From a bacterium (lineage in GTDB: Bacteria; SZUA-182; DTGQ01): a stretch of 64,000 nt of DNA. A program made the translations under genes and the position numbers. The stretch covers positions 1 through 64,000 of the forward strand of contig JBFLZW010000035.1 in NCBI GenBank assembly GCA_040755755.1, in the 5' to 3' direction. The notes beneath the pieces were generated by a model, which saw nothing but the letters and a program-made list of their open reading frames with translations, had not been told where the DNA came from and made no database searches. The first letter of the stretch is position 1, and every line of letters starts with the position of its first letter. Positions 21,023-25,958 of the stretch are shown here, in pieces.

Positions 21023-21895
21023 TCAGGAGGAAGCGAAGTACAGCAGCAGGGCTTCCCGGATAATTTTGGCTGCCACAATACTGCTCACCTGATGAGGGGT
21101 CTGATACGGCAGAAGCTCTACCACATCCATACCAACCACCCGTGCGGCACGAAAAATGGATAAGACCTGCATCAATTGATGAAAACTGAGCCCGCCGGGC
21201 TCAGGTGTACCGGTTCCCGGCAGGGCCGAAGGGTCCAGGACGTCTAAATCAAGACTGATGTAGACAGGCTGCGCCTGAATTTTTCGCTCTATGATCTCAA
21301 GGTCGGCCTGAGAAGTTTTATGGTGAGTTTTATATTCACCGCCAATCCGGCGGGCAATCAGAAACTCCTCCTGGCATCCTGACCGGATGCCCACCTGAAT
21401 CAAACGGGAGTCTCCGATCATCTCCAGAACTCTGCGCATAACCGTGCTGTGCGACAGCCGCTCTCCCAGATATTCATCCCGCAAGTCTGCATGAGCATCG
21501 AGGTGAATCACCAAAAGGTCAGGATAATGCTTCCGAAAGGCCGTAATGACAGGCAGACTGATCAGATGCTCTCCTCCCAGGGTGATGGGAACTTTATGGT
21601 CGTTGAGCACCTGATCGATGGCCTGATTGATGAGGTCAAGGGCCCGCTGGGTATTCCCGAACGGCAATTCCAGATCGCCGAGGTCACAGAAGGCGACTTG
21701 CGACAGGTTCCTGTTTAAATCCGGGCTGTAACTTTCCACGGCCCAGGATGCTTCGCGGATAGCATTGGGTGCGAATCGTGATCCGGGCTGATAGGTTGAA
21801 GTGCCATCAAAAGGGCAGCCGAGAAGCACCAGAGAAGCATCGGCATATTCTGCGTTGGCATCGAGAAAGTGCAGGCGGTTAAAGCGAGCTTCCAT
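21023..21895 (-). CDS. speB: Agmatinase
   Basis: Agmatine ureohydrolase of 290 aa: agmatine + water gives putrescine + urea. The dimanganese-binding motifs are all present: GGEHLISLP, HLDAHADLRDEY and SLDLDVLDPSALPGTGTPEPGG. It is the last gene of the polyamine operon and overlaps the end of speE by 17 nt. With pdaD and speE upstream it completes arginine to agmatine to putrescine to spermidine. Arginase-superfamily members with other guanidino substrates exist, but the context strongly favours agmatine. Confidence 0.92.
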   Translation of the reverse strand: MEARFNRLHFLDANAEYADASLVLLGCPFDGTSTYQPGSRFAPNAIREASWAVESYSPDLNRNLSQVAFCDLGDLELPFGNTQRALDLINQAIDQVLNDHKVPITLGGEHLISLPVITAFRKHYPDLLVIHLDAHADLRDEYLGERLSHSTVMRRVLEMIGDSRLIQVGIRSGCQEEFLIARRIGGEYKTHHKTSQADLEIIERKIQAQPVYISLDLDVLDPSALPGTGTPEPGGLSFHQLMQVLSIFRAARVVGMDVVELLPYQTPHQVSSIVAAKIIREALLLYFASS

Positions 21896-22739
21896 TCGGC
21901 AGCATTTCCCTTATGAAATTCGGCAGGCTGAAGGATGCGCGGTGAATCTGCGGATTATAATACCTGGGTCTGGGCTGGAGCTTCTCATACCGCTCTCCAT
22001 CGGGGTGCTCGCTGTTATCGGTCCCCTTCGAACACCAGGCAAAGCTCCAGCAACCGGCCGGGTAGGTAGGGATAAAGGCCAGGTACATTCTGGAAACCGG
22101 GAAGACATGCCTGAGTTTCTGATGCATGGGGCGGATTATCTTCTCATGCAGGAACGGTGATTCCGACTGGGCTGCCATAATACCGTCCTCCCGGAGTGCA
22201 TGAGAAATATCCCGATAGAAAGACTCGGTAAAGAGACCCTCTCCCGGACCGATAGGGTCGGTCGAGTCAATGATAATCACGTCATACTCGGGCCGGGAAT
22301 CTTTAACGAATTGTATCCCATCGGCTACATGAATGGTAACCTTCGGGGAACTTAATAATCCCTGGCTGAGGCCAGGGAAATACTCCTTACATTTTTCAAT
22401 AACCATTTCGTCGATTTCAACCAGGTCAATGTGCTCAACACCGGGGTGCTTCAGGGCTTCGCGGACAGTTCCCCCATCGCCCCCTCCGATAATCAGAATC
22501 TTCCGGGGGTCGGGATGAGAAAGCAGGGGAACATGAGCGATCATCTCATGGTAGACAAATTCATCCCGCTCGGTTACCATGACCAGACCATCCAGCAGGA
22601 GGATTTTCCCGTAGTGCGGTGTCTGAAGAATCGCGATGTCCTGATATCTGGTTCTTCCCTGAAACAGGCAGTCGGTAACCTTAATTGTAATTCCGGTATT
22701 CTCGGTATGTTTTTCCGTATACCAAAGTTCCATAGTCAA
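21879..22739 (-). CDS. speE: Spermidine synthase
   Basis: Aminopropyltransferase of 286 aa that moves the aminopropyl group of decarboxylated SAM to putrescine. It opens with a small beta-strand domain (ELWYTEKHTENTGI), then the Rossmann core with IIGGGDGGTVREALKH, VEIDEMVIEKCKEYF and the catalytic DSTDPIGPG motif. It lies 7 nt after pdaD and overlaps speB. Length and motifs are standard for the bacterial enzyme. The donor is made by speD at the head of the same operon. Confidence 0.95.
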   Translation of the reverse strand: MTMELWYTEKHTENTGITIKVTDCLFQGRTRYQDIAILQTPHYGKILLLDGLVMVTERDEFVYHEMIAHVPLLSHPDPRKILIIGGGDGGTVREALKHPGVEHIDLVEIDEMVIEKCKEYFPGLSQGLLSSPKVTIHVADGIQFVKDSRPEYDVIIIDSTDPIGPGEGLFTESFYRDISHALREDGIMAAQSESPFLHEKIIRPMHQKLRHVFPVSRMYLAFIPTYPAGCWSFAWCSKGTDNSEHPDGERYEKLQPRPRYYNPQIHRASFSLPNFIREMLPNGSSL

Positions 22740-22746
22740 CAGCTCC

Positions 22747-23214
22747 TCAATCCCATAAGACTACTGCGGCAAACGCAGCCCCGATCTTTTTAACCTGATA
22801 TTCAATGGAAATACTCTGGATTTCTCTGATGTCCTGCCGCCGAAGCTTCATTCCCTGCTCAGCCATATGCCGGACAATGATTTCAATATCATGCTTCCTC
22901 CCTTGAGCGGAGTACTCCATGATCAGGCCGGGATAATCCGGGTCGGCAGGGAAAGCGGCAGCTACAGCAGCGGAGATAAACTCATCCTGCATATCGCTGC
23001 TGATCGAGGCATAGGCCACGGGGACGAGTGAGCCAGCCGGAATGGAACAGGGGGGAATCTTCACGCACCTTGGAGGAACGATGCTGCTCATTTTCACCAG
23101 GTTCAGATTCCCGATACCGGCGTCCAGGAGAGCACCGTCAAAGGCATTCAGGGGAGTATATCCTTCAGATGCTCCGGCAACGAAAAAATATTTGGTCGGT
23201 GTTTTAATGATCAT
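22747..23214 (-). CDS. pdaD: Pyruvoyl-dependent arginine decarboxylase
   Basis: A 155-aa proenzyme that self-cleaves between S43 and S44 ([10 protein letters not shown]) to give a pyruvoyl cofactor and then decarboxylates arginine to agmatine. The conserved [13 protein letters not shown] and [10 protein letters not shown] blocks are present. This type is common in archaea, chlamydiae and some anaerobic bacteria, in place of the larger PLP enzyme SpeA. It lies 8 nt after speD and 7 nt before speE. With speD it makes the first two decarboxylases of the operon both pyruvoyl enzymes, so the pathway needs no PLP. Confidence 0.93.
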
Positions 23215-23222
23215 CCTACTCT

Positions 23223-23642
23223 CTAACCTTGCTTATTGCCAGATGAATTAAGGGTTTCTACCAATGGCTTGTAAGGGAGATGCTGATTGGGTAAATCGAG
23301 CTGTCCTCTTTTCATTTCCATTGTAGTAGCATAGGAAGCTTTGAGCTTCGTTTTCAAAAATTCAAAGGCTTTCCATGGATCTACCGTATCGCCGCAGGTG
23401 AATATATCAACCGCTGCATAGCCATACTCCGGCCAGGTATGAATGGCCAGATGCGACTCGGCAATAACGACTACTCCGCTGATTCCATGCGGATTAAATA
23501 AATGAAACACACTTTTCACGATGGTGGCGTTGCAAGCCTCGGCAGCGCTTTCCATGTATTTCTGAATAAGGTTACAGCTATTCAATATGCTATGATCACA
23601 GTCATAGTATTCAGCAAGTATTTGGCGGCCTAGCGCTATCAT
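23223..23642 (-). CDS. speD: S-adenosylmethionine decarboxylase proenzyme
   Basis: A 139-aa class 1B AdoMet decarboxylase. Self-processing gives the pyruvoyl group at S63 ([19 protein letters not shown]); H68 and C83 match the processing and proton-donor residues known from the Thermotoga enzyme. It supplies decarboxylated SAM to SpeE. The C-terminus carries about 15 residues beyond the usual core. First annotated gene of the operon: AAGGAGG lies 8 nt before the ATG but is embedded in a short upstream ORF (23646-23666) whose stop is 3 nt away. Confidence 0.94.
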
Positions 23643-23645
23643 AAG

Positions 23646-23666
23646 CTACCCTCCTTCTTTGCCCAT
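23646..23666 (-). CDS. Short upstream ORF before speD (MGKEGG)
   Basis: Minus strand: GGGAGG, then ATA, then ATG at 23666, reading MGKEGG and TAG at 23648-23646, three nt before the speD ATG. An in-frame ATG at 23684 would extend it to MSKGGIMGKEGG. The codons GAA-GGA-GGG contain the Shine-Dalgarno of speD, so a ribosome on this ORF would cover that site. That layout could make speD translation depend on uORF translation or on stalling at its end. Eukaryotic AdoMet decarboxylase mRNAs use a hexapeptide uORF for polyamine control, and SpeFL does so for E. coli speF. Expression here is unproven. Confidence 0.45.
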   Translation of the reverse strand: MGKEGG

Positions 23667-23714
23667 TATACCTCCCTTGCTCATTAATAAGCAGTCCACA
23701 AAAAGAAGAGGACT

Positions 23715-23743
23715 ATTCTACCCTATTTAATGCGGAATGTAAA
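23715..23743 (-). promoter_or_regulatory. Sigma-70 promoter of the polyamine operon
   Basis: Minus strand: TTTACA (23743-23738), 17-nt spacer, TAGAAT (23720-23715). The predicted start lies about 65 nt before speD, so the uORF is inside the leader. From 23744 to 24006 there is no gene. Confidence 0.65.
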
Positions 23744-24006
23744 GAATTATTTTTCCAAAAAAACATTTGCTATGTGCATGATTTTATGGTAATTTTAACT
23801 GAACAGGCAGAAGTTGAAAGAGAATAGGGAAGGTCCGAAATCATCATAAGGTGAAATTACACCGCAGAAAGCTGCCAGCATGCAGTCTGGAAAATCATAT
23901 TGACAATCGGTTTGATTTATGAGATTCTGTCTGCTGATAAGTATCTCTAAGATATTTAAATTTAATCGATTTTTTATTACAATCTCAGTTTCAAGGAGAA
24001 GAGAAA

Positions 24007-24363: not shown

Positions 24364-24434
24364 AATATACTTCGCTCTGCTTTGTTGTCTGCGGATCACG
24401 GAAACTATCAAAATTCTAATTCGGGTATACGAAT

Positions 24435-25958
24435 TTGAAAGAGATTATTATAAATGCTAATCCTTACGAAAAACGAGTCGCTTTACTGGAGAACCGCCTC
24501 TTAACGGAAATTTATATTGAACGACGAAGAAGCAAAAGGATAAATGGTAATATCTATAAGGGAAGAGTAGCCCGGGTTCTACCCGGAATGCAGGCGGCTT
24601 TCGTTGATATTGGCATTGGACGGGATGCTTTTTTATATGTAGTGGATGTTACCGATCCATCACTGGACTATGATAAGGTCATGCTGCCTGACGATGTCGA
24701 TGCCCTTGACACTGCCGAAGATATCATCGAAGAAAAAAGCCCTTCTCACTACAACGGCGCAGCCATTGAAGATTTGCTGAAAGAGGGGCAGGAGGTGCTG
24801 GTCCAGGTTTCCAAGGAGCCTCTGGGAACAAAGGGAGCACGGGTTACAACCAATATTACCCTTCCCGGCCGGTATCTGGTGTTTATGCCGACCGTGGACC
24901 ATATCGGGATTTCCCGGAGGATTGAGGATAAAACCGAGCGGTCCAGGCTGCGGGATTTAATTACCCGGCTGAAAAAGCCCAATGTCGGCTATATTGTCCG
25001 GACCGTAGGTGAAGGAAAAGATGAAAAGCACTTCCGGGCTGACATGGATTATTTATCGAAGCTCTGGGAAAATATCCTTATTAAAAGCAATAGCTGCTCC
25101 GCTCCCTGCCTGGTTCACCGGGAATTGGATATCCTGCTGAAGACCTTACGCGATATTTTCAATAATGACGTTGACCAGTTGGTTATCGACTCCCGAGAAG
25201 AATATGACCGGTGCAACGAATTCCTCGAATCATTTCTTCCCAGTCTGACTGACCGGGTTAAATTCTATGCCAAGCCGAAGCCCATCTTTGATGAATACGA
25301 TATCGACCGCCAGATCGAGGATGCCCTCTCGCCAAAAGTCTGGCTCAAATCCGGCGGGTACATCGTTATTGACGAGACCGAGGCATTGATTGCCATTGAT
25401 GTCAATACCGGAAAGTTTGTCGGTGAAACGAGCCTTGAGGAAACCATCTTCAAGATCAATATGGAGGCCATTCAGGAAATCGTCCGCCAGGTGCGGCTCA
25501 GAGATCTGGGGGGAATTATTGTTATCGATTTCATCGACATGGAAAGTGAGGAAAACCGCTCCAGAGTCCTTCAGGCCCTGGAAGAGGAATTGAAGCGCGA
25601 CCGCATGCGAACCAAGGTCCTTCAACTGACCGAACTGGGACTGGTTGAAATGACCCGCAAAAGAATCAAGCAGAGCCTGTCGAACATCCTCACTACCCCC
25701 TGCCCCTATTGCAAGGGAACCGGGCGGGTAAAATCGGTTCTCACCATCTGCCGGACCATCCAGCGGGAAATCGACCGGCTGGCACCATCCTGTAAAGGAG
25801 ATGAAATTCTCATTAAAGCCCATCCCAGCATCGCCGCTTTCTTCTATAAGCAGGAGGATGCCCTCCTGGAATATCTGGAAGGAAAATATAACAAACGGAT
25901 TACCGTGCGGAGTGATCCGGAACTTCATTATGAACAGTATGACATCGTTGTCTTGTAA
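24435..25958 (+). CDS. rng: Ribonuclease G/E family endoribonuclease
   Basis: A 507-aa single-strand-specific endoribonuclease for rRNA maturation and mRNA decay. An S1 RNA-binding domain lies near residues 37-125 (NIYKGRVARVLPGMQAAFVDIG). The catalytic core has AIDVNTGKFVG and IVIDFIDM, whose Asp residues hold the magnesium ion, and TPCPYCKGTGR is the zinc-link region. There is no long disordered tail, so it is RNase G-sized rather than RNase E. Start is TTG (MKEIIINANP) with poor Shine-Dalgarno. It precedes rplU by 23 nt, a common arrangement. Confidence 0.94.
   Translation: MKEIIINANPYEKRVALLENRLLTEIYIERRRSKRINGNIYKGRVARVLPGMQAAFVDIGIGRDAFLYVVDVTDPSLDYDKVMLPDDVDALDTAEDIIEEKSPSHYNGAAIEDLLKEGQEVLVQVSKEPLGTKGARVTTNITLPGRYLVFMPTVDHIGISRRIEDKTERSRLRDLITRLKKPNVGYIVRTVGEGKDEKHFRADMDYLSKLWENILIKSNSCSAPCLVHRELDILLKTLRDIFNNDVDQLVIDSREEYDRCNEFLESFLPSLTDRVKFYAKPKPIFDEYDIDRQIEDALSPKVWLKSGGYIVIDETEALIAIDVNTGKFVGETSLEETIFKINMEAIQEIVRQVRLRDLGGIIVIDFIDMESEENRSRVLQALEEELKRDRMRTKVLQLTELGLVEMTRKRIKQSLSNILTTPCPYCKGTGRVKSVLTICRTIQREIDRLAPSCKGDEILIKAHPSIAAFFYKQEDALLEYLEGKYNKRITVRSDPELHYEQYDIVVL

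Follow-up and report, generated by a model that had tools for sequence, protein, structure and literature searches.

A conserved six-codon open reading frame overlapping the speD Shine-Dalgarno sequence: a candidate translational coupling element in a bacterial spermidine operon

The 64,000-nucleotide stretch of bacterial DNA analysed here (the window) carries, on its minus strand, a six-codon open reading frame (mini-ORF) that ends immediately upstream of speD, the gene for S-adenosylmethionine (AdoMet) decarboxylase. The mammalian gene for this enzyme has an upstream ORF (uORF) encoding the hexapeptide MAGDIS (PMC4505036). The question raised by this locus is whether the bacterial mini-ORF acts on speD translation, by sensing polyamines or by loading ribosomes, or is an incidental product of a purine-rich leader.

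The speD operon and its leader

The genes concerned are the following:

23223..23642, minus strand: speD, S-adenosylmethionine decarboxylase, 139 aa (TIGR03330; ortholog in genome G001 92-93% identical)
22747..23214, minus strand: pyruvoyl-dependent arginine decarboxylase, the next gene of the operon (TIGR00286)
21879..22733, minus strand: speE, spermidine synthase (TIGR00417/NF002010)
21023..21895, minus strand: speB, agmatinase (TIGR01230)

Together they make up a standard arginine-to-spermidine operon; the sequence-only reading had spoken of an operon that makes spermidine. SpeD scores 153.8 bits against TIGR03330 (cut-off, 75.65), which identifies it as a genuine AdoMet decarboxylase, and its start is fixed by homology, reading frame, and Shine-Dalgarno (SD) sequence. 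The leader contains these elements:

23715..23743, minus strand: promoter-like sequence TTTACA-N17-TAGAAT (10/12), kept in three genomes
23667..23674, minus strand: SD1, the SD of the mini-ORF, GGAGGT with flanks (from the sequence and the comparison with G001)
23646..23666, minus strand: mini-ORF ATGGGCAAAGAAGGAGGGTAG, encoding MGKEGG (read from the sequence; identical in G001)
23649..23660, minus strand: SD2, the speD SD AAAGAAGGAGGG, inside codons 3 to 6 of the mini-ORF (read from the sequence)

Read along the minus strand, the leader runs TTTACA-N17-TAGAAT...TTAATGAGCAAGGGAGGTATA-ATG-GGC-AAA-GAA-GGA-GGG-TAG-CTT-ATG, where the codons from the first ATG (23666) to TAG (ending at 23646) form the mini-ORF and the last ATG (23642) is the start of speD. 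SD1, which reads GGGAGGT here and AAGGAGGT in G001, is separated from the mini-ORF ATG by 3 to 4 nt. The TAG codon (23648-23646) is followed by CTT and then by the speD ATG, leaving a gap of 3 nt, and the two ORFs share a reading frame, with their ATGs 24 nt apart and UAG-CUU between them. Most of what the sequence-only reading had described is found as stated: the promoter at 23743-23715, the TAG 3 nt ahead of the speD ATG, and the GAA-GGA-GGG codons serving as the speD SD; its GGGAGG-ATA-ATG opening is more exactly GGGAGGT-ATA-ATG. The 12-codon form that it also offered, MSKGGIMGKEGG from an in-frame ATG at 23684, is present in this genome, but G001 has no ATG at that place, and this longer uORF was rejected because its start is not conserved.

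The mini-ORF lies downstream of a predicted promoter whose hexamers occupy the same positions, with the same 17-nt spacer (TTTACA-17-TAAAAT), in G001 ahead of speD and in G002, a member of the same family, ahead of a speD remnant. Four of the six residues of MGKEGG (KEGG) are simply the speD SD, AAA-GAA-GGA-GGG, translated in that frame, so that the peptide sequence alone carries little information; the peptide is probably a by-product of reading the SD in frame. Readthrough of the UAG as pyrrolysine, which would give SpeD an N-terminal extension, was rejected, as the genome encodes no PylS above the TIGR02367 cut-off (best score, 25.9 bits versus 178.15).

Conservation within the genus

The class is represented by nine genomes in the collection examined, with G001 as the sole congener. 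G001 carries AAGGAGGTATAATGGGCAAAGAAGGAGGGTAGCTTATG, in which the whole succession of SD1, ATG, MGKEGG codons, TAG, CTT, and ATG is identical, with stop and spacing unchanged. Upstream of the speD ATG, the two genomes share 33 nt of uninterrupted identity (34/36 overall), and both this run and the 36-nt identity are the highest among 33 orthologous gene starts, the second-longest run being 14. The starts in this comparison were assigned heuristically, probably with a few errors that leave speD unaffected; the runners-up are wrong or in-gene starts and the leader of RNase G. Third codon positions of speD differ at 25 of 115 sites (∼22%) versus 0 of 33 in the upstream block (Fisher P = 0.001, with the caveat that part of these 33 nt are SD letters, constrained anyway), and 5' of the block the two leaders have drifted apart, with insertions. 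Each of the two congeneric genomes contains the ORF pattern a single time, at speD only.

The mere presence of such an ORF means much less. When this leader is dinucleotide shuffled, 2.9 to 4.4% of the shuffles contain an ATG mini-ORF that has an SD and stops close to the start codon, and 1 of the 39 genes in the window has one, so presence alone is not evidence. As judged from the sequence comparison, it is the exact conservation in the congener that counts as evidence. Since the two carriers are identical at the mini-ORF, selection on the nucleotides, on the start and stop codons, and on the peptide are not separable.

Distribution beyond the genus

Relatives lacking the ORF, named in the sequence-only reading as the finding that would count against it, do exist at the family level and above but not within the genus: the mini-ORF is absent from the 7 other genomes of the class (family, order, and class members, including G002 and G003). 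In G002, the promoter and about 30 speD codons are kept without the mini-ORF. At loci L028 and L112 of that genome, speD is intact for its first ∼30 codons, then stops and runs straight into speB; the rest of speD, the pyruvoyl-dependent arginine decarboxylase gene, and speE are missing at this site, and the genome yielded no other speD.

No such mini-ORF was seen in 100 other speD leaders examined. A general speD-linked uORF was rejected on these counts, as the 2 carriers among 102 homology-anchored leaders both belong to this genus and compare with a mean of 1.4 expected from shuffles in which the SD region is kept. A genome-wide family of such modules was likewise rejected, the two-mismatch pattern search giving 12 matches in G000 versus 10 in the reversed control. 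The leader L046 contains a look-alike, ATGAGGAAGGGAGGGTAG (MRKGG), about 25 nt 5' of speD and without an SD of its own; its relative L047 has ATA where L046 has ATG, indicating that such ORFs arise easily from purine-rich leaders. A search of the available literature found no paper on a bacterial speD uORF.

Translational coupling and its alternatives

With its strong SD1, very short ORF bearing SD2, and stop 3 nt 5' of the next start, the speD leader is laid out like integron ORF-11 and bicistronic design (BCD) cassettes, in which ribosomes that enter at SD1 go on to supply the second start, and translational coupling is favoured for this reason. A mini-cistron confined to this genus and delivering ribosomes to speD has, on the sequence and these analogies, about an even chance of being the right explanation. 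ORF-11, at the attI1 site of class 1 integrons, is also a short SD-led ORF just 5' of a gene, for which termination-reinitiation has been proposed and in which the SD and ATG matter but amino acid changes matter little (PMC8876359). It serves cassettes that lack an SD, whereas speD has a strong one inside the mini-ORF; the MGKEGG ORF is shorter than ORF-11 and is in frame with its gene. BCD cassettes similarly have an SD1, a short first cistron with SD2 at its 3' end, and a stop beside the second start (PMC5995908), but they are synthetic, with a 17-residue leader and a one-base stop/start frame shift, whereas the present element is natural, with 6 residues, a 3-nt gap, and a single frame. The delivery of ribosomes to downstream genes by uORFs has been reviewed (PMC12548453).

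In the proposed mechanism, the speD mRNA would start with a natural mini-cistron: a ribosome would bind SD1 (AAGGAGGT or GGGAGGT), translate MGKEGG, and terminate at UAG. The terminating ribosome, positioned over the speD SD and 3 nt 5' of the speD AUG, could then reinitiate or leave the site accessible to the next 30S subunit, so that speD output would track initiation at the mini-ORF and the efficiency of its termination. A ribosome footprint exceeds 24 nt, and the two starts, only 24 nt apart, therefore cannot be occupied simultaneously; for the same reason, slow termination at the mini-ORF would limit rather than enhance speD expression. Seen directly are the anatomy, the promoter, and the fact that SD1, ATG, stop, and spacing are kept within the genus; beyond these, we infer that the mini-ORF is translated, that it is coupled to speD, and that its effect is enhancing, not limiting. 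The SD-led short ORF with its stop within a few nucleotides of the downstream start is kept in G001, as expected of a mini-cistron. Against coupling stand the short spacing between SD1 and its ATG (3 to 4 nt), the speD SD, which appears strong enough alone, the about 100 other speD genes that do without a mini-ORF, and the restriction of the element to two genomes that are identical there. If coupling is real, a six-codon ORF can set speD translation, and the two-SD mini-cistron layout of synthetic biology has a natural case heading a spermidine operon.

The same purine-rich sequence could instead act as tandem ribosome-binding sites or an extended standby site, both SDs being conserved for recruitment of the 30S subunit to speD and the ATG being incidental or rarely used. 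This alternative, possible but on balance doubtful, agrees with the conservation of both SD1 and SD2, with the derivation of KEGG from AAA-GAA-GGA-GGG, and with purine-rich leaders elsewhere that contain GGAGGGTAG without a conserved start (MRKGG-stop in L046, ATA for ATG in L047), but G001 has also kept the letters outside the SDs, TATAATGGGC and TAGCTT, with the ATG and stop among them. That the mini-ORF has no function at all, as a chance ATG in a purine-rich leader common to two close genomes by descent or through a locally slow rate, is rather unlikely: 3 to 4% of shuffles do give such an ORF, there is a single independent lineage, and third-position divergence is only about 22%, but the block shows 0/33 differences versus 25/115 at the adjoining third positions and the remaining leader has diverged. 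A reading of the TATAAT in GGAGGTATAATGGG as a proximal -10 element, which would give a 15-nt leader and make the conserved block partly a promoter, is very improbable. The hexamer is perfect and kept in G001, but neither genome has a -35 hexamer at 16 to 18 nt or a TG extension, and it is the upstream promoter that three genomes retain, with its 17-nt spacer.

The sequence-only reading had named polyamine-dependent stalling and coupling side by side; coupling fits the anatomy and the nucleotide-perfect conservation in the congener, whereas such stalling finds no support. A sensory leader peptide would work much like MAGDIS: in the presence of abundant polyamines (or another metabolite), MGKEGG would arrest the ribosome at UAG, mask SD2, and shut off speD. 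The gene and the ORF size are right for this and the mini-ORF is exactly conserved in G001; bacterial ribosomes can be arrested by hexapeptides at a stop codon, as in MsrDL (PMC10314930), and E. coli has polyamine-related uORFs (SpeFL, and one suggested for MdtU; PMC7815308). Such a sensor is nonetheless decidedly unlikely, as MGKEGG resembles neither MAGDIS nor known arrest peptides, the SD accounts for the choice of residues, the mini-ORF is absent outside the genus, including all other speD leaders examined, the two genomes share no alternative leader structures, the leader has no Rfam match, and two identical copies cannot demonstrate selection on the peptide. Polyamine-dependent arrest at the mini-ORF is improbable. 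MAGDIS is likewise a hexapeptide ORF 5' of the same enzymatic function, but it has no sequence similarity to MGKEGG and belongs to an unrelated translation system, with a cap-scanning mechanism in mammals; no peptide ending in Asp-Ile-Ser is encoded in the 102 speD leaders. SpeFL of E. coli also is a leader ORF of a polyamine biosynthesis operon, but it is far longer, responds to ornithine, and works via RNA structure and Rho, none of which is seen here, and with the stop 3 nt from speD there is no room for a structural switch or a Rho site between peptide and gene. An AdoMet decarboxylase gene under the control of a hexapeptide uORF that senses polyamines and whose codons double as the speD SD would give bacteria a parallel to the eukaryotic MAGDIS uORF, but this is very unlikely; if the mini-ORF did respond to polyamines, the convergence with eukaryotes would be striking, yet only the gene identity and the ORF size point in that direction.

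Leader RNA structure and neighbouring conserved sequences

The speD leader folds no more stably than its shuffles (z, -0.6 to +1), and no alternative leader structures are common to the two congeneric genomes. A GCUUAUU-type inverted repeat is found 5' of SD1 in both of them, yet the predicted global folds differ, and a conserved leader hairpin was rejected. A known riboswitch or leader RNA was also rejected, as the speD leader has no match in Rfam.

Two further stretches close to speD are well conserved. One, TACCATAAAATCATGCACATAGCAAATG at 23744-23790 (minus strand), precedes the speD promoter, hardly differs in G001, and is possibly an operator or UP element. On the plus strand, the ORF of an RNase G/E family protein (24435-25958) has a TTG start without an SD sequence, and its leader includes a stretch, AAAATTCTAATTCGGGTRTACGAATTTGAAAGAGATTATTATAAATG, that is nearly identical in G001. 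A perfect inverted repeat, AATTCG-GGTATA-CGAATT, abuts this TTG start (within 24405-24440 of the window, plus strand) and may form a hairpin through which the RNase mRNA is autoregulated.
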